Below, in pieces: positions 1 through 9,691 of a stretch of DNA of 64,000 nucleotides (positions within the stretch are counted from its first letter, which is position 1; the number at the start of each line of letters is the position of its first letter). A program made the position numbers and the translations under genes. This DNA is from an uncultured Prolixibacteraceae bacterium (GTDB taxonomy: Bacteria; Bacteroidota; Bacteroidia; Bacteroidales; Prolixibacteraceae). Below the pieces are notes generated by a model that saw only the letters and a list, made by a program, of their open reading frames with translations, made no database searches and was not told where the DNA came from. The stretch spans positions 1-64,000 of the forward strand of contig CAILJH010000211.1 in the NCBI GenBank assembly GCA_903834475.1, given 5' to 3'.

Positions 1-881
1 GTCATCAGGCGGTTCACGTTACTTCGGCGCTTACCGGTTTCAACAACCGGTTCATCGATAGCGCCAAACGGGCACGAATTGGAACAAAGTTTACATTGTA
101 TGCAGGCAGCGGGAGTTATCGTCATGTGTTTCGATGAAAACCGCGACATCCACCCAAGCAAAACACCGTACGGACAAAAAAACCTGCAATATGGCCTGAC
201 AACAAAAATGCCAACAATCAGGAACAAAATACCCAAAATCAACATGTGGAAAGGCGCTTCAAATCGAAAAAACCCTACAAACGGATCGTACCTGCAAATA
301 ATAAATTCGGATTTGGTGGCAACATACAAAACAGATAATCCGAGATACAGATACGGGATTAATCCAAGAACTTGCTGAATCCATTTGGGCAATTCGATGG
401 GCCGGATGGCAACAATGTCCTGAATAGCTCCCAACGGACAGGCTCCAGCACAAAATGTTCTTCCGAAGAAAAGTGAAAAGACCAGCGGAAGCAGGAAAAA
501 TAACAAGGCGGTAATTGGGATGGCATAGGTAGGATCAACAATTCCGAGCACCACGTTTTGGATCGAGCCGATGGAACAGATACAACCTTCGCGATAGAAA
601 CCAAAATACAGCAATGAAAAAACTGAGGTCCAGAACACGCCCTGCCGTGAACGTTTCTTCAGGACAAACCAGGTTACCAGAGACAAGACAGCCAATAAAA
701 TCAAAACATCAAGATATTCCAGAACGAGAAACCGGGCTGATGGTGCAGTGGTATTTGGTTGCTGATAACCGGTATCAAATTCAGGCTTCGGAAAGCGCTG
801 TTTGGCATCAGCAGCAAACGATTGGATTGCGCCGAAGATTAATATAGAAATCAGTAAAAAATATCGTTTAAATAGTTTCAT
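1..881 (-). CDS. NapH/NosR-type membrane Fe-S protein (3' end off the window)
   Basis: The reading frame opens at ATG 879-881 and stays open to base 1, giving 293 residues with the C-terminus missing. It has a signal or first membrane helix (residues 5-22), further hydrophobic segments near 55-73, 83-95, 121-139, 170-187 and 212-229, and the two CX3CP membrane motifs of NapH/NosR-like proteins (C144/C148 and C232/C236). A ferredoxin motif CX2CX2CX3CP follows at C260, C263, C266 and C270. Family knowledge: these proteins pass electrons between quinol and periplasmic partners. The start overlaps the ORF6N gene by 14 bp, and two Tat-exported Fe-S/Cys proteins lie just upstream, so a shared electron-transfer role is inferred. 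The exact partner reductase is not visible. Confidence 0.85.
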   Translation of the reverse strand, partial: MKLFKRYFLLISILIFGAIQSFAADAKQRFPKPEFDTGYQQPNTTAPSARFLVLEYLDVLILLAVLSLVTWFVLKKRSRQGVFWTSVFSLLYFGFYREGCICSIGSIQNVVLGIVDPTYAIPITALLFFLLPLVFSLFFGRTFCAGACPLGAIQDIVAIRPIELPKWIQQVLGLIPYLYLGLSVLYVATKSEFIICRYDPFVGFFRFEAPFHMLILGILFLIVGIFVVRPYCRFFCPYGVLLGWMSRFSSKHMTITPAACIQCKLCSNSCPFGAIDEPVVETGKRRSNVNRLM

Positions 882-1389
882 CACTTTTATAACCTATTCG
901 TTTTCGCTGTTTCTGTTCGGTTTCCTGATTGTCTTTTTGGAGTAGAAAGTTAATCGCATCAATCACATTTTTGAACTGTTTATCGTATTTGTTTTCAAGT
1001 TCTAGTAATTTTCCGGAAAGTTCCTTGTAATTTAAAACAAATTGTTTTAGAGTGATGAAAGCACGCACAATAGAAATACTGGTTTGTCTGGCCTTTTTAC
1101 TTTTCAAAACGTTGGCAAGCATAGTAACCCCATGTTCGGTAAATGCAAATGGTAAATAAATTGTTCCTCTGTGTTTTCTTGAACTCATCACAAATTGTGA
1201 TGAGTTACTTTCCCATTCAGTCTGGGAAAGCGGGAACATGAAATCCTCCGGGAAAATATCAATATTTCGTTTTACAGCCTGATTTAATACTCTGGTTTCG
1301 ACCTCGTAAAGTTCGGCAAGATCAAAATCCAGCATGACCTTTTGCCCACGGATTTCGTAAATTTTCGTTTGAATCTTTTCAATCTGCAT
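868..1389 (-). CDS. ORF6N-domain DNA-binding protein
   Basis: About 173 residues. The N-terminal half carries the ORF6N/KilA-N-like signature (IRGQKVMLDFDLAELYEVET, then VLNQAVKRN and FPEDFMFPL). The C-terminal half (about 120-165) is Lys/Glu/Gln-rich and probably a coiled coil. ATG 1387-1389 is preferred over the TTG six bases upstream because AAAGGA sits at normal spacing. ORF6N domains are known from phage antirepressors and from chromosomal copies of unknown role. Here the gene starts right behind the ferredoxin stop and overlaps the membrane Fe-S protein start by 14 bp, so it is co-transcribed with an electron-transfer operon. Whether it regulates that operon or was simply inserted cannot be told. 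Confidence 0.8.
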   Translation of the reverse strand: MQIEKIQTKIYEIRGQKVMLDFDLAELYEVETRVLNQAVKRNIDIFPEDFMFPLSQTEWESNSSQFVMSSRKHRGTIYLPFAFTEHGVTMLANVLKSKKARQTSISIVRAFITLKQFVLNYKELSGKLLELENKYDKQFKNVIDAINFLLQKDNQETEQKQRKRIGYKSDETI

Positions 1390-1395
1390 ATCCAA

Positions 1396-2001
1396 TTATC
1401 CTTTTTTCTCTTTCCCTTTATTTCCGCCGCCTTTGGTAAAACCACCCTTAATCATATATGGCGTTTCTACCGGAACACGCTGAAAGGCCTCCGCCGGGCA
1501 AACTCTGGCAATGGCGCATTCATTGCAATTCTTGCACCGGTCATGCCGTACCTGTAAATGCAGCGAACCGTTTCCAAATGAAGTACATCCGGCAACACAT
1601 TTGGCACAGCCTATGCACAATTTTTCATCGATTACATATTCAAAATAAGGATCTTCAATATACTTGCGCTGGATTGCTGCAGTCGGGCAAAGCTGATTTT
1701 CGGCGGCGGTAGTCCGGGCATTTGGATCGGGTTTCAAATAGCCACCACACAAATCGCAGTAGCCGCATAAATTATAGGCATGTACACATTTTACTGCTGA
1801 AGGGGTCATTACGCATTCGGTGGCACACCGTCCACATTGAACACACTTGAACGGATCGAGCTGCCAAACCAGCTTTTTTGAAGTCGATTTCAGGAGTGAA
1901 ACACCGGCAATACCGCCCAGTGAGACTGCAAGGGCGATCTGCATCCCGCTGCGAAGAAACCGACGCCTCTCGATACTTTTGGGTATTTCTTTATCGCTCA
2001 T
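1396..2001 (-). CDS. Tat-exported polyferredoxin (four 4Fe-4S type motifs)
   Basis: 201 residues. The N-terminus has a twin-arginine signal (R12-R14 followed by FLRSG and a hydrophobic stretch to about 37). Seventeen cysteines fall into cluster-like groups: C53/56/59/63, C72/79/82/85 plus C105, C129/132/135/139 and C156/159/162/168. This resembles NapG/DmsB-type periplasmic electron-transfer subunits, which bind four [4Fe-4S] clusters. The C-terminus is Gly/Lys-rich. It overlaps the end of the upstream 70-residue Tat protein by 11 bp and probably pairs with the NapH-like membrane protein. No catalytic molybdoenzyme or other terminal enzyme is seen in the window, so the electron acceptor is unknown. 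Confidence 0.85.
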   Translation of the reverse strand: MSDKEIPKSIERRRFLRSGMQIALAVSLGGIAGVSLLKSTSKKLVWQLDPFKCVQCGRCATECVMTPSAVKCVHAYNLCGYCDLCGGYLKPDPNARTTAAENQLCPTAAIQRKYIEDPYFEYVIDEKLCIGCAKCVAGCTSFGNGSLHLQVRHDRCKNCNECAIARVCPAEAFQRVPVETPYMIKGGFTKGGGNKGKEKKG

Positions 2002-2203
2002 TTTTCCGGTATGTTTGTGCCTTATCCAACGAACAGGTGCTTAACTTTTGACATTTTTTACAGAATTGATTATCATTACAACCATCAAACTGAATCCTGT
2101 TTTCGGTCATCAACCAGACTGAGCCACCAACCATGGTGGATAGAAAAGTCAGCTGAGCAGCTCTCCTGAAAAAATCTCTCCTGTCAGTTTTTTTTGTATC
2201 CAT
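1991..2203 (-). CDS. Tat-exported 70-residue protein with CX5CX2CX5C
   Basis: A very small protein. A twin-arginine signal (R8-R9, then DFFRRAAQ and a hydrophobic core to about 32) is followed by only some 38 mature residues holding exactly four cysteines, C42, C48, C51 and C57 (CX5CX2CX5C). Four cysteines in a compact Tat-exported domain suggest a metal or Fe-S site folded before export; this is inference. It is first in the Fe-S gene block and overlaps the polyferredoxin start by 11 bp, so the two are probably translationally coupled. No family name is recognised with certainty. Confidence 0.75.
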   Translation of the reverse strand: MDTKKTDRRDFFRRAAQLTFLSTMVGGSVWLMTENRIQFDGCNDNQFCKKCQKLSTCSLDKAQTYRKNER

Positions 2204-2378: not shown

Positions 2379-3341
2379 TTACTTCTTTTCAAAAATACGT
2401 ACCTGTTTCCGGTCAAAATCGAGGGCAATCACACGCTGGTCGGCATCAATGGCTAAATCCGGAGCATACCAGCCATCTTTGAATAGATCTGGTGAAGCGA
2501 CAACTCCTTTGAAATTGCCCTTCTGATCGTACCATTTGATACGTGGCATTCCTTTCTCGCTGGTAATAAACGAATTGTCAGCCAAAATAGCAAATTGTGC
2601 CGGATTGCAGCATCCTGTAAATCCTTCAGTTTTGAAACTTGCAACTCCCCACGAAGTACGAAGAGAACCATCGGAATTGTAATTTTCGAGACTGTGCCGA
2701 CCAGTATTAGCCACCCATAAAAGTCCATTGCCATCCAAAGCCAAATCGAAATATGGACTTGGAAGTATATATCCTGGGACACGAAGATGTTCGTCTTTCT
2801 CACCAATTTTACTCAACATCTGGCCTGAAGTATTGCAGTGGTAAACAATCCGGTTACCGGCATCGGCAACATAAACATCTTCGCCCGAAACCGCCAGAGA
2901 TGTGATTACAGAACGGTCGCCAAACGAATTCCAACGCCTGAGCAAAATTCCGTTCGAATCGAACAAGGCCACCGAATGACGCGTCCCAACCCAGATTTCG
3001 TTGTTGGCAGCAATTGTTACGCAGCTGGCCGTATCCGGAAGTTCCTTCCGGAGAAATTCTTTTCCGGAGTAATCGTATTTCAGAAGCAGTTTTTCGGTCA
3101 CCACAATGATTTGCTTTCCGGAAACTGCAATTCCTGCGGGCAAACCAGCTTCTACAGGAAAAGATTTCGTTTCATGAAAAAGGATGGTTGTTGAATCCAC
3201 TTTCCGAAATTCATCCACATTGTATTCATACGGATTTTCGATATTTTTACCGGCTTTATTTCCTATGAAATCCTTGCCGATAATGACAATGATTGCTACA
3301 GCAAGAACAATCAATACGATATTTACAAGTTTACGATTCAT
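2379..3341 (-). CDS. Membrane-anchored NHL-type beta-propeller protein
   Basis: 320 residues with one N-terminal membrane helix (about 6-23) and the rest outside the cytoplasm. The body is built of repeated propeller blades, for example PAGIAVSGKQIIVVT, VYVADAGNRIVYHCN, DLALDGNGLLWVANTGRHSL and DLAIDADQRVIALDFDRKQV, typical of NHL/SMP-30-like folds. No catalytic residues can be named. It lies four bases from the next propeller gene (3346-4767) on the same strand, and both have the same anchor design, so they are probably one unit. A role as a docking or sensing scaffold for the exported Fe-S proteins downstream is only inferred. Confidence 0.8.
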   Translation of the reverse strand: MNRKLVNIVLIVLAVAIIVIIGKDFIGNKAGKNIENPYEYNVDEFRKVDSTTILFHETKSFPVEAGLPAGIAVSGKQIIVVTEKLLLKYDYSGKEFLRKELPDTASCVTIAANNEIWVGTRHSVALFDSNGILLRRWNSFGDRSVITSLAVSGEDVYVADAGNRIVYHCNTSGQMLSKIGEKDEHLRVPGYILPSPYFDLALDGNGLLWVANTGRHSLENYNSDGSLRTSWGVASFKTEGFTGCCNPAQFAILADNSFITSEKGMPRIKWYDQKGNFKGVVASPDLFKDGWYAPDLAIDADQRVIALDFDRKQVRIFEKK

Positions 3342-3345
3342 AATT

Positions 3346-4767
3346 TTATTGACTTACATTTATACAATACATGGTTTTCGAATCACGTAACAGTAATCGT
3401 CCATCGGCGATGGCCATCGGCGCCCAGGCATCCTGTCCGTCGAACAGCTTTTTCTGTGCCAGCTGAATGTAATTTTTACTGTCAGGTTTAATCATAGTCA
3501 GCGTACCATCGTCGCTCAGAATGAACATTTTATTATCAGCTATGAGGTAAGGGCCAAGTCCAAAACGGCCATCCTTTCCTGAAGTCCATATCACTTTATT
3601 GACATCATTGGGATCTACACAGATCAGCTGGTTTCGCAGCGGACCAGCATCCTTTGGTTCGATAGCCAGCATAACACCATTCCAAACTACGGGAGTCTGC
3701 TGTTCACAGGCCATTCCGTCTTTCGGAAGATATTCCTTCAATACATCCACCTTATATTCTTCTCCTGAAGGAGTTACCTTGATCATCATACTTCCGGCAC
3801 CATAACCGGCAGTTAAGAACACCTTTCCATCCGGAAAACAAACCGGAGCCGGAGCCACTACTGCATGATTCCATGCCGTTGATTTCCAGAGAATTTTACC
3901 CTCGTCGGCACCTTCAGCAGAAACGCCGACAACCGCACCAATGGCGCTGTACACATACATTTTCTTTCCATGCAAGGTCCATGGCATGATGGATGAGTGC
4001 GACATTTTAACTCCGCCCGGATTGGGAGTTTCCCACAAAACTTTCCCGGTAGCCAAATCAACTGCAATCATTACTGCACTGCCACCAGGTGCCAGAATAG
4101 CCTTGTTCCCATCGATCATCGGACACTGGCCTGTAAACCAAAGTGGCACTTCAGTTTTGTATTTCTGAACCATATCGAGTCCCCAGACTAAATCGCCCGA
4201 TTCGCGTTTAACGCACATGACATGGCAACGTGGGCCAACAGTGAGCACATAATTGGCAGTAACTGCCGGCACTGTTCGCGACATTCCATGATTCCGTTTC
4301 AGTTTGACTTTGTAGGAACGCCTCCAAAGTTCCGTTCCATCTTCCAGCGAAAAACAACGCAAAGCATCTTCACGCTTAGTTTCATTGTAGTCCATCAGGT
4401 AAACTTTTCCTTCGTAAATAGCCGGACCGGCATGACCTTCACCCAATTCAACCGACCATAAAATTTCAGGCTGATTACCAGTCCATGAGCTCTTTAGCTG
4501 AATTGAATTTTTACAGATATTATCAAAATCAGCGCCCCGAAAGTGTGTCCAGGTTCCTTTCAGGTTGGTTTGCGATGTGCCAAACAATTTGAATTTTTCG
4601 CCAATGTTAACCGCTTCATTAACCGTTGCCGAGTCTGAACCACGGTTATCAGCTCCCGGATTACTTTCGGTAAACTTGCTCGTTGGATCTCTCATCATCC
4701 ACCAGAGAAACAGAACCACTATAATTGTTCCAACCGCCCACAATATGTATTTGATGTATTTTTCCAA
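3346..4767 (-). CDS. Membrane-anchored PQQ-like beta-propeller protein
   Basis: 473 residues starting at TTG 4765-4767. No in-frame ATG is available before the membrane helix at about 5-22, and the first internal ATG would delete that helix, so TTG is chosen. The body has repeated PQQ-like blade motifs such as MIAVDLATGKVLWETP and EDGTELWRRSY (PF13360-type fold, as in BamB and quinoprotein dehydrogenases). No haem c motif (CXXCH) is present. Compared with the next three propellers it lacks the WRGxNRxG opening but keeps a WTHFRG variant. It is closely followed by the NHL protein, suggesting co-expression. True PQQ binding cannot be judged from sequence alone. Confidence 0.8.
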   Translation of the reverse strand: MEKYIKYILWAVGTIIVVLFLWWMMRDPTSKFTESNPGADNRGSDSATVNEAVNIGEKFKLFGTSQTNLKGTWTHFRGADFDNICKNSIQLKSSWTGNQPEILWSVELGEGHAGPAIYEGKVYLMDYNETKREDALRCFSLEDGTELWRRSYKVKLKRNHGMSRTVPAVTANYVLTVGPRCHVMCVKRESGDLVWGLDMVQKYKTEVPLWFTGQCPMIDGNKAILAPGGSAVMIAVDLATGKVLWETPNPGGVKMSHSSIMPWTLHGKKMYVYSAIGAVVGVSAEGADEGKILWKSTAWNHAVVAPAPVCFPDGKVFLTAGYGAGSMMIKVTPSGEEYKVDVLKEYLPKDGMACEQQTPVVWNGVMLAIEPKDAGPLRNQLICVDPNDVNKVIWTSGKDGRFGLGPYLIADNKMFILSDDGTLTMIKPDSKNYIQLAQKKLFDGQDAWAPMAIADGRLLLRDSKTMYCINVSQ

Positions 4768-4954: not shown

Positions 4955-6196
4955 CTAATTTCTCAGGTTATAGACTGCCAAATACTCACCGTGACGCACC
5001 AGCAATTTTCCGTCATAAATAGTTGGATGTGCCAGGTGTGGTCCTTCTCCTTTTTTTATTCTGAATGAACTTACTATTTCAAACTTGTCAGGATTTGGCT
5101 TTACCAAAGCCAGATTGCCGTGCTTTATCTCATAACAATACAGTAGTCCGTCAGCAGAAATGATAGGTCCATTGTTGAACCATTTAGTCTCATACATGGT
5201 TTTCCCGGTTTTCCAGTCTACACACATCCAATTTCCTGCATTATCGTTTAACCAGTTCGATCCAAACAGATAGTCTCCAACTTTTACCACTCCTCCAATA
5301 AAATTATCAAAATCAGGATTGGTCCATTTGAGTAGAACGGAACGTCCATCGTCTGCCAGACTCAACATGATTGCCGGATGATTGTATCCGCTGGTTATAA
5401 AGATTTCGTTGTTATAATAAAGCGGAGTATTGGTGTTGGCACCGACACCAATTGATCCGGTATGATATTGAATGATGTTAAAAGTCCACACAATTTCACC
5501 ATTTTCGATGTTGATAGCCATCAAATCCTTTGCTGTTTGAGCCAGCAAAAGGTGAAGTCCGGCCTTTTCAATGATTACAGATGAGGCATAAGCACGTGTA
5601 CCGCCAAGACTCTTCGTTTTCCAGAGTACTTTACCGTTCAACTTATCCAATGCAATCACCGATGTTTCCTCTCCACCGGTGACATAAAAAACGGCCTTGT
5701 CAGAAATGGCCAGCGATTCGGCAATACCCCAGGAATGCGGCGCACCTTTAAACTCAGTTTGTGCATCGATGGTCCAGATTAGTTTTCCGGAAACTGCATC
5801 AACACAAGCTACCTGCCCCATTCCACTGACAATATAAATGCAGTTATTCTCAATTGTTGGTGTACAGCGGTTTTCAGGAAAAGCTTGTTTCCAGGACCGT
5901 CCAAAAACCGTTTCCCAATTTTTCTTTCCATTCATCTCATAGGAAGAAACGACATCCATAGTGTCCCTGTTTCCACAAACATAAATGGTGTTCTTGTATA
6001 TTACTGGTGATGAAAAACCTTTCCCGATATCCTTTAACTCCAGCAGAAGCTGGGGTCCGTTTTCAGGCCAGCTTTTCAGGAGATTTATATCGGGATATAT
6101 TCCTGTTCGGTTAGTACCTCTCCATTCGACCACATCCTGCGGAAAAAGGTTTCCACAAAAGATGAAAGTCAGCAATAAAAAGGTGAGTCTCCTCAT
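4955..6196 (-). CDS. Exported PQQ-like beta-propeller protein
   Basis: 413 residues. A signal peptide (MRRLTFLLLTFIFCGNLFPQ) is followed by the opening WRGTNRTGIYPD and KSWPENGPQLLLEL shared with the three related propellers in this window. PQQ-like blades include ACVDAVSGKLIWTID, IALDKLNGKVLWKTK and MAINIENGEIVWTFN. No lipobox or membrane anchor beyond the signal peptide is visible, so it should be periplasmic. It precedes the anchored propeller (3346-4767) and follows another paralogue 14 bases upstream. Substrate and cofactor are unknown. Confidence 0.82.
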   Translation of the reverse strand: MRRLTFLLLTFIFCGNLFPQDVVEWRGTNRTGIYPDINLLKSWPENGPQLLLELKDIGKGFSSPVIYKNTIYVCGNRDTMDVVSSYEMNGKKNWETVFGRSWKQAFPENRCTPTIENNCIYIVSGMGQVACVDAVSGKLIWTIDAQTEFKGAPHSWGIAESLAISDKAVFYVTGGEETSVIALDKLNGKVLWKTKSLGGTRAYASSVIIEKAGLHLLLAQTAKDLMAINIENGEIVWTFNIIQYHTGSIGVGANTNTPLYYNNEIFITSGYNHPAIMLSLADDGRSVLLKWTNPDFDNFIGGVVKVGDYLFGSNWLNDNAGNWMCVDWKTGKTMYETKWFNNGPIISADGLLYCYEIKHGNLALVKPNPDKFEIVSSFRIKKGEGPHLAHPTIYDGKLLVRHGEYLAVYNLRN

Positions 6197-6210
6197 TATT
6201 TTTAGATTAA

Positions 6211-7449
6211 TTAAGCTTTAATGTTGTAAACAAACAATACTTCACCGTGGCGCAAATACAGTTTGCCGTTTGCAATATACGGATGCGACCAGAAAGGCCC
6301 TGATCCACCCTGCAATTTAAATGAACTTACCACGTCAAATTTATCAGGATTTGGTTTTACCAAAGCAACTGTTCCTGATTTCTCTTCCAAAATATAAAAT
6401 AAGCCGTCAGCATAAACCAAAGCGCCTTTGGTAAGCCATTCTGTTTCGTATTTTACTTCGCCGGTATTCCAGTTCATGCAAATCCATTTTCCTTTACTAT
6501 TGCTGATCCAATTCGATCCATAAATGAACCCGTCCAATTCGATGAGACCATGATGGTGATTATCGAGAACCATATTGCTCCATTTTTCGGTAACTGCAGT
6601 TCCTTCCTCATTCATTTCAATCATTACATTTCGGTAATCGTAACCCATAGAAATAAAAATATCTCGTCCCTTAAAAACCGGAGTGTTGGCCCAGATCAGA
6701 CCGGGTTGATCCCATTTATCGCCATCCCAGTATTTGAAAGTCCAAACCACTTTTCCGGTTGCCGGTTCGAGGGCAATCAGATGAGTACCAGTGGCAGCCA
6801 AAATATACCTGAATTGTTTGTATTCATATATTATTGGAGAAACATAACAACGTGGTCCGCCAACCGATTCGCTTTGCCAAATAAGCTTTCCGGTCATTTT
6901 ATCGAGAGCAACAATAGAGGTTGTTTGTCCTCCCGGAGAGCAAATGACTTTATCGTCAACAATCAGCGGTGATTCTGAAACTCCCCAAATATGCCATTCA
7001 GAATGATAATCCTTATCGACATTAACTTTCCAGCGGATTACTCCATCAGCTACATTCAGGCAAACCAGTTCTCCGGTACCACTTATGATATAAATCCGGT
7101 CGTTTTCTACCGTTGGAGTGCTGCGGGTTTCAGGAAAAGATTTGGTCCATGATCGTCCATAGGCTACTTTCCATTTGATTTGTCCATCCGGAGTAATGCA
7201 CGAAAGGTAATCCAAGGTATCTATCATTCCAGTGGCAAAAATATTCTGATCGGCAGCAACTACTGAAGAGTATCCTTTGCCAATTCCTTCCACTTTCATG
7301 ATCAATTGGGGGCCGTCTTTCGGCCAATTTTGCAGTAAGCCTGTATCCGGAAATTTACCATCGCGTTGTGGGCCGCGCCATTGAACAGGCTGTGCGACTG
7401 CAATGAAAACGAGTAAGAGGAGAGCAAAAGATAGATTTAATTGTTTCAT
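6211..7449 (-). CDS. Exported PQQ-like beta-propeller protein
   Basis: 412 residues when started at ATG 7447-7449, which gives a clean signal peptide (MKQLNLSFALLLLVFIAVAQ). An upstream TTG would add 13 residues before the signal and is rejected. The opening is QWRGPQRDGKFPD then LQNWPKDGPQLIMKVEGIG. Blades include CLNVADGVIRWKVN, VALDKMTGKLIWQSE and ALEPATGKVVWTFKY. It is the closest relative of the 4955-6196 product, sharing for example FGSNW/YGSNW and GRSW. The pair probably arose by tandem duplication, with a 14-bp spacer. Confidence 0.85.
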   Translation of the reverse strand: MKQLNLSFALLLLVFIAVAQPVQWRGPQRDGKFPDTGLLQNWPKDGPQLIMKVEGIGKGYSSVVAADQNIFATGMIDTLDYLSCITPDGQIKWKVAYGRSWTKSFPETRSTPTVENDRIYIISGTGELVCLNVADGVIRWKVNVDKDYHSEWHIWGVSESPLIVDDKVICSPGGQTTSIVALDKMTGKLIWQSESVGGPRCYVSPIIYEYKQFRYILAATGTHLIALEPATGKVVWTFKYWDGDKWDQPGLIWANTPVFKGRDIFISMGYDYRNVMIEMNEEGTAVTEKWSNMVLDNHHHGLIELDGFIYGSNWISNSKGKWICMNWNTGEVKYETEWLTKGALVYADGLFYILEEKSGTVALVKPNPDKFDVVSSFKLQGGSGPFWSHPYIANGKLYLRHGEVLFVYNIKA

Positions 7450-7510
7450 ATTTAATTGGTTAATGTATTTTATAAACCCAGAAATCAATTTTCCTGAGCT
7501 TGGTTAATTT

Positions 7511-8092
7511 CTATTTTAGAACTTCAAGTAAGCTCAACAATTCTCCCGTTTCAACAACTGATGCAAATTCATCTATCAGACTGGCTATTGCAGTTTCATG
7601 AATAATTTCTGCCGAAAACAGCTGCCCATTCTTACCTTTTTTACAAAAAGTAGCTGTCGCATCTTCAACCAGAAAAGTATTGAAGCCGAAATTTCCGGCC
7701 ATTCTCACTGTGGTAGAAACACATTGATCAGTCGTGAGACCGGCAATAACCAGCATTTTAATATGATCAAAATCAAGCAGTTCTTTCAGATTGGTTCCAA
7801 TAAAAGCGCTATTCACATTTTTCCTGATTACTGTTTCTCCCTCAGCTGGTGCTACAATATCCATAAATTCATTACCTGGCCGGCCTTCAGCAAGCCTGGA
7901 TTCAGGATTTGATGAGCAATGTTTAATGTGAAAAACAGGCCATGATTTCAATCTCCAAAATGCAAGTAATTTACCGGCATTGATTTCCGCTTCAGGATTA
8001 TTCCGTTGACCACCCCAATATTCCAGATCGTCAAACCCCTTTTGAAGGTCAATTAACAGCAGTGCCGGACGGTCTTTTTCAGAAACGATCAT
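7511..8092 (-). CDS. Cysteine hydrolase, isochorismatase family
   Basis: 193 residues, cytoplasmic (no signal). The N-terminus ALLLIDLQKGFDD carries the first catalytic Asp, followed by a conserved Lys (VFHIKH or VIRKNVNSAF) and the cis-peptide/Cys region LVIAGLTTDQCVSTTVRMAG with the nucleophile Cys, then the VEDATATF segment. This matches the cysteine hydrolase superfamily (isochorismatase, nicotinamidase, N-carbamoylsarcosine amidase). Substrate is not predictable. It sits between two propeller genes on the same strand, 61 bp from each, so a link to their pathway is possible. It is the only soluble metabolic enzyme in the cluster. Confidence 0.85.
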   Translation of the reverse strand: MIVSEKDRPALLLIDLQKGFDDLEYWGGQRNNPEAEINAGKLLAFWRLKSWPVFHIKHCSSNPESRLAEGRPGNEFMDIVAPAEGETVIRKNVNSAFIGTNLKELLDFDHIKMLVIAGLTTDQCVSTTVRMAGNFGFNTFLVEDATATFCKKGKNGQLFSAEIIHETAIASLIDEFASVVETGELLSLLEVLK

Positions 8093-8151
8093 TCTTATAA
8101 AATATAAATTTACTGGAAATCAGGATTGTAGGAATGTCCTTTGCCTGCTAA

Positions 8152-9369
8152 TTATTCCGAAATCTGATAAGCTATTAATGTATTTCCGTGCCGGACATAG
8201 AGAATTCCCTTGTCAATCACCGGGTGCGCCCAATGTTGTTCGGTACCCAAAGCAACTTTGGCTTTACTGATTACTTTTAATCCGGAAGGATTGGCATCGG
8301 CCAGAAACAAATCGCCTTTTTCAGAATAACCGATCAATTTATTATTGGCAGCAATGGTAACTCCTTTTGCCATTTCGGTGGAGGAATATTTCACTTCACC
8401 GCTTTTCCAATCGATACATTGCCAGCTGCGATCTTTGTCACCCGATCCGTAAATAAAACCGTTGATTAATACGGCTCCGCCAATGCGACTATCGAAGCTT
8501 TTTACATCCCTTTCTTTGGTAACAGAACTTCCATCAGGACTAAGGATCAGCATTTCAGCACCTTGTCCGTAACCACTGAAAACAAAAATTTTACCTTCAG
8601 AATAAATCGGAGTATTCGGGTGAACTGCCCAATCATTCGGATGTTCTGAATTCCATAGTAATTTTCCTGTTGTGGCATCAATACCCACCACATGGCTGGC
8701 AGTGTGAGTTACCAGCAACTGACGTGCCGGTAATTTGATCAGAAGTGGAGAACAATAAGCCGATAATTCACCCAATCCTGGACAACTCCATATTGTTGCT
8801 CCTGTCATGCGATTTAGTGCCACCACATTGTTAATTTTTCCGCCGGGAGTACAATACAATTTATCACCGTCGACCAGCAACGATTCGGTATAACCCCACT
8901 GAATATTAGATCCATCCATCTGGGTGATGAAATCTTTTTCCCACGCTGGTTTTCCGGTTTTGAGATTGAGACAGGTTATTTTTCCATTTCCGTTAAACAA
9001 ATACGCCAGTTCGCCAACAATCGTCGGGGTTGAGCGCACGCCACGATAGCTTGCATCTACAAATTCTTTTCCGTATTTGGATTGCTGAAGTTCTTTTCCA
9101 TTTAAATCAAGTTCAAACAATACCGCCTCACCATCAACCATTCCATTGACATAAATTTTGTTGTTGGCAAATACCGGTGAAGAAAATCCTTGTCCCAAAC
9201 CATCATGCGACCACAAGATTTTTGGACCATCGGAAGGCCAGGCAGCTAACAATTTGTCGACAGGGTAAACTCCTGATGAATTTACACCACGCCATTTTGT
9301 TGGTTCCTGAGCATTTGATAACTGAAGAAACGCAACGAAAAGAAATACAAATACAAAAATAGTCTTCAT
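8152..9369 (-). CDS. Exported PQQ-like beta-propeller protein, first gene of the cluster
   Basis: 405 residues with a signal peptide (MKTIFVFVFLFVAFLQLSNAQ) and the opening KWRGVNSSGVYPV then LLAAWPSDGPKILW. Blades include CLNLKTGKPAWEKD, VALNRMTGATIWSCP and VGIDATTGKLLWNSE. It is more like the lone propeller at 43204-44442 than its tandem neighbours in the C-terminal region (HWAHPVIDKGILYVRHGNTL versus HFSHPVISNGVLYIRHGNTL). Upstream on the minus strand, TACTTTTA (about 9395-9402) resembles a Bacteroidota -7 box, so transcription of the cluster may begin here. Confidence 0.83.
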   Translation of the reverse strand: MKTIFVFVFLFVAFLQLSNAQEPTKWRGVNSSGVYPVDKLLAAWPSDGPKILWSHDGLGQGFSSPVFANNKIYVNGMVDGEAVLFELDLNGKELQQSKYGKEFVDASYRGVRSTPTIVGELAYLFNGNGKITCLNLKTGKPAWEKDFITQMDGSNIQWGYTESLLVDGDKLYCTPGGKINNVVALNRMTGATIWSCPGLGELSAYCSPLLIKLPARQLLVTHTASHVVGIDATTGKLLWNSEHPNDWAVHPNTPIYSEGKIFVFSGYGQGAEMLILSPDGSSVTKERDVKSFDSRIGGAVLINGFIYGSGDKDRSWQCIDWKSGEVKYSSTEMAKGVTIAANNKLIGYSEKGDLFLADANPSGLKVISKAKVALGTEQHWAHPVIDKGILYVRHGNTLIAYQISE

Positions 9370-9691
9370 TGGTTATTGGTTAAATTGTTTGTCGTAAAAG
9401 TATCAAGCTTCAATCAGTATTCCAACATGATATGGAATTTAATCGCTTTCTAAATAATAAGATTCATTAACAATTTAATCTGGAGAAGAATTAATTCATC
9501 GAACTATTTATCAGCACGTTACAGTAAAAAAGGTATTAAATGATAAATATCATGGAATACGGCTTTGATTAATATAATTACAGAAGATACTGAAGCTAAA
9601 TGTAGAAACGTTTTTTTAAAGCAGAAAAAGGCAGATTTTGAGAGTCATCTAAAAGTAGATAGCTTTAAGTAAAACATGAGAAGCTGAAGAA
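9370..9691. other. AT-rich gap without a recognised gene
   Basis: About 320 bases between the first propeller gene and the unknown gene at 9692. It is AT-rich, with no ORF of useful length, no strong hairpin and no tRNA-like fold. The only candidate signal is the -7-like box (reverse complement TACTTTTA) about 30 bases from the propeller start. Confidence 0.5.

Follow-up and report, generated by a model that had tools for sequence, protein, structure and literature searches.

What is the role of a protein of 70 amino acids whose gene overlaps that of a polyferredoxin in an uncultured Prolixibacteraceae bacterium, and what might its four cysteines bind? The gene lies near the start of the 64,000-nucleotide stretch of contig CAILJH010000211.1 that we analysed (the window; Table 1). 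A sequence-only reading of the window had taken the product for a Tat-exported protein with a mature domain of 38 residues that may bind a metal or an Fe-S cluster.

A small four-cysteine gene under purifying selection

The cysteine pattern described in the sequence-only reading is confirmed: the 70-amino-acid protein has exactly four Cys (42, 48, 51 and 57), all inside CX5CX2CX5C. The overlap with the polyferredoxin gene is also real, with 11 nucleotides (1991-2001) shared with the 201-amino-acid ferredoxin ORF, and the overlap offset is identical in 19 of 62 adjacent pairs of small gene and ferredoxin. Of the 372 ORFs of at least 40 amino acids in the window, only the one at 1991-2203 contains the strict motif, which appears in 13 of 200,000 residue shuffles of the protein.

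Comparison of seven close copies gave 461 synonymous versus 276 non-synonymous codon differences, with 567 differences at third codon positions versus 244 and 89 at the other positions, and a median dN/dS of 0.07 (16 computable of 21 pairs). The 1991-2203 ORF is a real, conserved coding gene under strong purifying selection. Across 40 aligned sequences the invariant positions are R8 and the four Cys only. An AlphaFold model of the small protein based on seven alignment rows has a low-confidence helix at residues 6-26; with a pLDDT of 51.7 it is poor and was set aside as evidence. Searches with the window protein brought no match from Pfam, NCBIfam or PHROGs, and no relative of the gene product exceeds the threshold in Pfam, NCBIfam or PDB. 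The small gene represents a real, conserved and unnamed small protein family.

Table 1. The small gene, its parts and its neighbours at the start of the window
Feature	Position	Strand	Basis
NapH-like membrane ferredoxin, cut by contig start	3..884	-	PF12801 2e-19; TIGR02163 4.6e-10, below cut-off
ORF6N-domain protein, probably outside the module	868..1395	-	PF10543 4.3e-33
NapG-like ferredoxin of 201 aa with an RR signal and several 4Fe-4S motifs	1396..2001	-	Pfam Fer4 models, alignment; below NCBIfam cut-offs
11-nt overlap, end of small gene and start of ferredoxin	1991..2001	-	ORF coordinates
Small four-Cys protein gene (70 aa, ATG start)	1991..2203	-	ORF, homologues, purifying selection
CX5CX2CX5C motif, Cys 42, 48, 51, 57	2033..2080	-	Sequence and alignment
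Tat-like signal, probably an uncleaved anchor: N-terminal RR at residues 8-9, hydrophobic segment at about 15-32	2108..2182	-	Sequence, first R kept in 40/40 aligned, TatC in genome
NHL-repeat protein	2379..3341	-	PF01436 1.7e-10; conserved beside ferredoxin
PQQ_2 beta-propeller protein, N-terminal hydrophobic segment	3346..4767	-	PF13360 1.3e-17; conserved
PQQ_2 beta-propeller protein	4955..6196	-	PF13360 1.5e-26
PQQ_2 beta-propeller protein	6211..7488	-	PF13360 1.4e-20
PQQ_2 beta-propeller protein	8152..9369	-	PF13360 4.7e-20

Distribution, gene neighbourhood and fusions

An initial scan of genome contigs identified seven related loci, in records assigned to Prolixibacteraceae or to Bacteroidota/Bacteroidetes. 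Wider searches covered drawn, non-exhaustive subsets of genomes. A single-sequence search of 100 genomes from the window's family returned a small-protein match in 64, one of which (G082) is spurious and was dropped, as it has two internal stop codons and no ferredoxin. The ferredoxin search gave matches in 74 of the same genomes. Both genes were detected by similarity in 63, and in 62 of these the small gene comes first, on the same strand, and adjoins the ferredoxin gene; in the 63rd (G073) pieces of the two genes lie at two contig ends. The Fe-S neighbourhood noted in the window is thus shared by its relatives.

Eleven family genomes had a ferredoxin match only. Nine of them carry an upstream CX5CX2CX5C gene missed by the single-sequence search, and reading of the upstream sequence in another (G014) revealed no small gene. 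The distant ferredoxins of the eleventh, G017 (41%), where the gene has a different setting, and, elsewhere in the order, of G234 (39%) are without an NHL neighbour and were left out of the module count. In total, the ferredoxin cluster occurs in 73 of the 100 family genomes, and in 72 of these the small gene directly precedes the ferredoxin gene. The Cys spacing reported from the window is kept strictly in all 71 complete family copies, which do not include the G073 copy, cut after its third Cys.

Ferredoxin matches were found in 35 of 198 genomes of the order, a count reduced to 31 by removal of G234 and of three family members already counted. The small domain is present in 21 of these 31 clusters outside the family: 18 copies are strict (three of them fused to the ferredoxin), one is CX4CX2CX5C (G136), and two are divergent, with CX2CX5CX5C in G210 and, in G285, CX2CX5C without the first Cys and followed by further Cys. 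Family and order together have the strict motif in 89 of 92 complete copies. The remaining ten order clusters (G121, G122, G131, G183, G188, G206, G235, G252, G267 and G289) have no upstream small gene, and a whole-genome profile search of these ten genomes found no separate copy; the profile matches in five of them are to the ferredoxin's own N-terminus. Overall, the four-Cys domain occurs in 93 of 104 clusters and is missing from 11.

A search of 395 phylum genomes detected the ferredoxin in that of the window alone, no match to the small-protein profile in other genomes was convincing, and the module (beta-propellers, NHL protein, small protein, NapG-like ferredoxin, NapH-like membrane ferredoxin, propeller and NuoEF) was not found beyond the order in this set. 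Small-protein matches in eight phylum genomes other than the window's own (E 8.7e-4 to 0.0099) are partial, some with stops, and were rejected as chance; two of the eight (L097 and L101) contain the Cys pattern, in frames without an RR signal. Plasmid records yielded no relative. Within one order of Bacteroidota the small gene serves as a marker of a conserved redox cluster, and the literature searched yielded no description of this cluster.

The genes up- and downstream in the relatives read are PQQ_2 propellers, NHL protein, small gene, ferredoxin, NapH-like protein, a membrane propeller of about 600 amino acids and a NuoE-NuoF/Fer4 fusion of about 785 amino acids; the cluster genes are largely redox genes. 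Four loci (L155, L156, L157 and L159) continue with a Fer2/GltD-like flavoprotein, a glycosyltransferase and an ABC transporter. In L159 the NuoE-NuoF-Fer4 fusion (785 aa) is located at 5019-7376 and the Fer2/GltD-like flavoprotein at 7953-9515. No hydrogenase or Nap catalytic gene was seen in the loci read. Three long loci without the small gene (L106, L108 and L117) have the core gene order intact, which argues that the four-Cys domain is accessory and not essential to the module.

Other features of the neighbourhood concern genes around this core. Three PQQ_2 genes are clustered at 4955-9369 on the reverse strand of the window, with a 193-amino-acid ORF (7511-8092) between two of them. The ORF6N gene, which is phage anti-repressor-like, sits between the ferredoxin and NapH-like genes and overlaps the start of the latter; at least two relatives (L158, 2887-3414; L159, 1189-1701) carry such a gene in the same position, but L004 does not. 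The NHL protein (2379-3341, reverse strand) has a GCCNP motif that recurs in upstream NHL proteins read in relatives. The NHL proteins of G014, G122 and G235, which are without the small gene, have a Cys-rich C-terminal tail (CSTCxxxC).

The three fusions (G198, G217 and G293) each come from a different family of the order (f94, f100 and f119). The fused ORFs, of 219-235 amino acids, consist of signal, CX5CX2CX5C and ferredoxin: one RR signal and anchor leads into the motif, and the first cluster of the ferredoxin (WQLDPxKCIQCGRC) follows at most about 20 residues past the last Cys. Because the domain is fused to the ferredoxin N-terminus, the split small protein is likely to sit there too, on the same side of the membrane. 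We consider the small protein very probably a partner of the NapG-like ferredoxin. Locus L106 (genome G121) encodes, at 4102-4650, a ferredoxin whose signal is like that of the small proteins (RK followed by KRKVSAS) and which lacks the four-Cys part. This ferredoxin looks like a fusion after loss of the four-Cys domain, and suggests that the RK signal of the small-protein family is able to serve a ferredoxin.

Export, metal site and proposed role

The window protein and its genus have an RR pair and a hydrophobic segment (RRDFF or RRDFL). Among 89 distinct small-protein copies, 44 have RR, 40 have RK and 5 another pair; these copies were gathered by motif, so they are uninformative on motif conservation and were used for the RR/RK and AxA counts only. 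Of 77 distinct unfused ferredoxins, 76 carry RR (72 identified by pattern, and L022, L025, L027 and L184 by reading), the exception being L106. A search of 21 genomes, the window's own included, found TatC in 19, and the window's genome is one of these. The Tat profile TIGR01409 matches 2 of 40 members, with a best E of 0.048 and 14.0 bits against a cut-off of 16.7. Given the RR in the genus, the RR signals of the ferredoxins and the presence of TatC, Tat-type export as first proposed seems likely for the small protein, although about half of the wider family has RK. The mature domain of 38 residues is not borne out. No AxA occurs between the hydrophobic stretch and the first Cys of the window protein, and AxA lies anywhere in the stretch from hydrophobic segment to first Cys in 21 of 89 distinct homologues. 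As no cleavage site is seen, the small protein probably keeps its N-terminal segment as an uncleaved anchor, which is as likely as or likelier than a cleaved signal; cleavage itself seems unlikely.

The four-Cys domain most likely binds a metal, probably as a [4Fe-4S] cluster, and our confidence in that cluster is moderate. CX2CX5C is the part common to RseC, the NuoG region and even the divergent copies, and a [4Fe-4S] site is the best inference. G210 and G285 keep CX2CX5C with the fourth Cys moved or lost, as would be expected if the site holds a metal and its fourth ligand can shift. The CX2CX5C triplet would provide the core ligands of a single [4Fe-4S] cluster, with the first Cys as the fourth.

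The alternatives assign the cysteines or the protein a different task. A structural subunit with Zn on the four Cys, stabilising the ferredoxin N-terminus or its membrane docking, is unlikely, though invariant four-Cys sites of this size are also typical of Zn, sequence alone cannot separate Zn from Fe-S, and the small gene is dispensable in 11 of 104 clusters; the Fe-S neighbour genes, the Tat-type signal and the Fe-S cluster reported for the same spacing in RseC (PMC11729352) argue against it. The optional nature of the domain, absent from those 11 clusters, would also suit an assembly or repair factor that inserts or protects ferredoxin clusters, or regulates the module, rather than an electron carrier, and RseC, with the same spacing, is presented as an accessory with an unsettled role in PMC11729352. 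We regard such a factor as quite unlikely, given that the three fusions make the domain a stoichiometric part of the ferredoxin. Least probable is a disulfide-bonded periplasmic mini-domain, its two disulfides forming a rigid docking knob for the ferredoxin: the even number of invariant Cys and the likely periplasmic location agree with it, but G285 and G210 retain CX2CX5C while losing or moving other Cys, and a small disulfide protein does not need the Tat route.

The tiny anchored four-Cys protein lies beside an exported Fe-S protein, and is fused to it in some relatives; it probably serves as a minor additional component of an electron-transfer system. In the reading we prefer, to which we give about equal weight for and against, it is an accessory subunit, anchored in the membrane, of a periplasmic electron-transfer module of the NapG/NapH type, with a putative [4Fe-4S] cluster beside the first one of the ferredoxin. 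Its Tat-type segment at the N-terminus, which is probably not cleaved, would hold the four-Cys domain of about 35 residues on the outer face of the inner membrane. There the domain could lie beside the first ferredoxin cluster and add or tune one step between the NapH-like subunit and the ferredoxin. Electrons might plausibly pass from NADH via NuoEF and the NapH-like subunit to the four-Cys domain, and on through the ferredoxin to an acceptor in the periplasm. More tentatively, the small proteins could represent a new minimal exported single-cluster [4Fe-4S] family, among the smallest such units, with about 35 residues outside the membrane and arisen independently of RseC and NuoG around the CX2CX5C core, that forms the membrane-side electron entry of a NADH-to-periplasm conduit (NuoEF, NapH-like, four-Cys and NapG-like proteins) feeding the beta-propellers in this bacterial order. 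If the four Cys do carry a [4Fe-4S] cluster, the protein would be a very small, genetically separable natural module for testing the effects of the fourth ligand and of an added cluster in a ferredoxin chain, since natural clusters have the domain split off, fused or rearranged, or lack it altogether.

Comparison with known systems

Matches of the 40 members to Cys-rich families fall under the cut-offs. The FeoB-associated Cys-rich membrane protein profile (PF12669) matches 1 of 40 (E 0.03), and the Syntroph_Cxxx radical SAM target (TIGR04117; 2 of 40, best E 0.0025) was rejected at 17.8 bits against a cut-off of 50. HiPIP is not among the 15 Pfam families listed for these members at E up to 10, a list from which HMMER filters drop weak matches. 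CX5CX2C recalls adrenodoxin-type [2Fe-2S] ferredoxins, in which the fourth Cys is some 35 residues away. The fourth Cys of the small protein lies 6 residues on, unlike in adrenodoxin, and the PDB matches to adrenodoxin (E 0.27-0.87, not significant) and to L44 ribosomal proteins were discarded as chance.

The His-Cys3 site of NuoG and [FeFe]-hydrogenase (PF10588, NADH-G_4Fe-4S_3) shares the CX2CX5C core followed by Cys-x-Leu-(Gln/Pro/Asp), as seen by eye and in an hhalign match of 14 columns. Its fourth ligand is a His at -4, whereas the small protein has a Cys at -6 and no His ligand position, so the HX3CX2CX5C pattern is absent. The profile matches 1 of 40 members (E 0.077, under the cut-off), and with an hhalign probability of 23% and 3 of 60 Cys-fixed shuffles scoring higher, we rejected homology and retain a motif analogy only.

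The N-terminal domain of RseC/MucC (PF04246) shares the spacing: the E. coli protein has the same CX5CX2CX5C, with the CX2CX5C core in common, and is likewise a membrane protein on a ferredoxin-type membrane electron-transfer complex (PMC11729352). According to that paper, the N-terminal 70 residues of E. coli RseC, once reconstituted, absorb at 420 nm, a band assigned to a [4Fe-4S] cluster that is sensitive to oxygen; the first Cys of the motif is dispensable, and RseC is an accessory of an electron-transfer complex whose role is not settled. Assembly, repair or regulation has been discussed for RseC at Rnf/Rsx. The first Cys is kept with the other three in the small-protein family alignment, in contrast to its dispensability in RseC. 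The RseC domain is cytoplasmic and precedes two transmembrane helices, whereas the Cys domain of the small protein follows one Tat-type segment. The PF04246 profile matches 7 of 40 members at all (best E 0.14, under the cut-off). Homology to RseC was rejected, as six RseC sequences gave an hhalign probability of 3% and a score of 13.3 versus a mean of 12.6 for 60 Cys-fixed shuffles, which is no signal beyond the Cys.

The cluster as a whole resembles the NapG/MauM and NapH/MauN systems, in that a polyferredoxin with an RR signal is followed by a NapH-like membrane ferredoxin. The matches are below NCBIfam cut-offs, and the cluster differs from NapG/NapH by its small four-Cys subunit, its beta-propellers and its NuoEF fusion.
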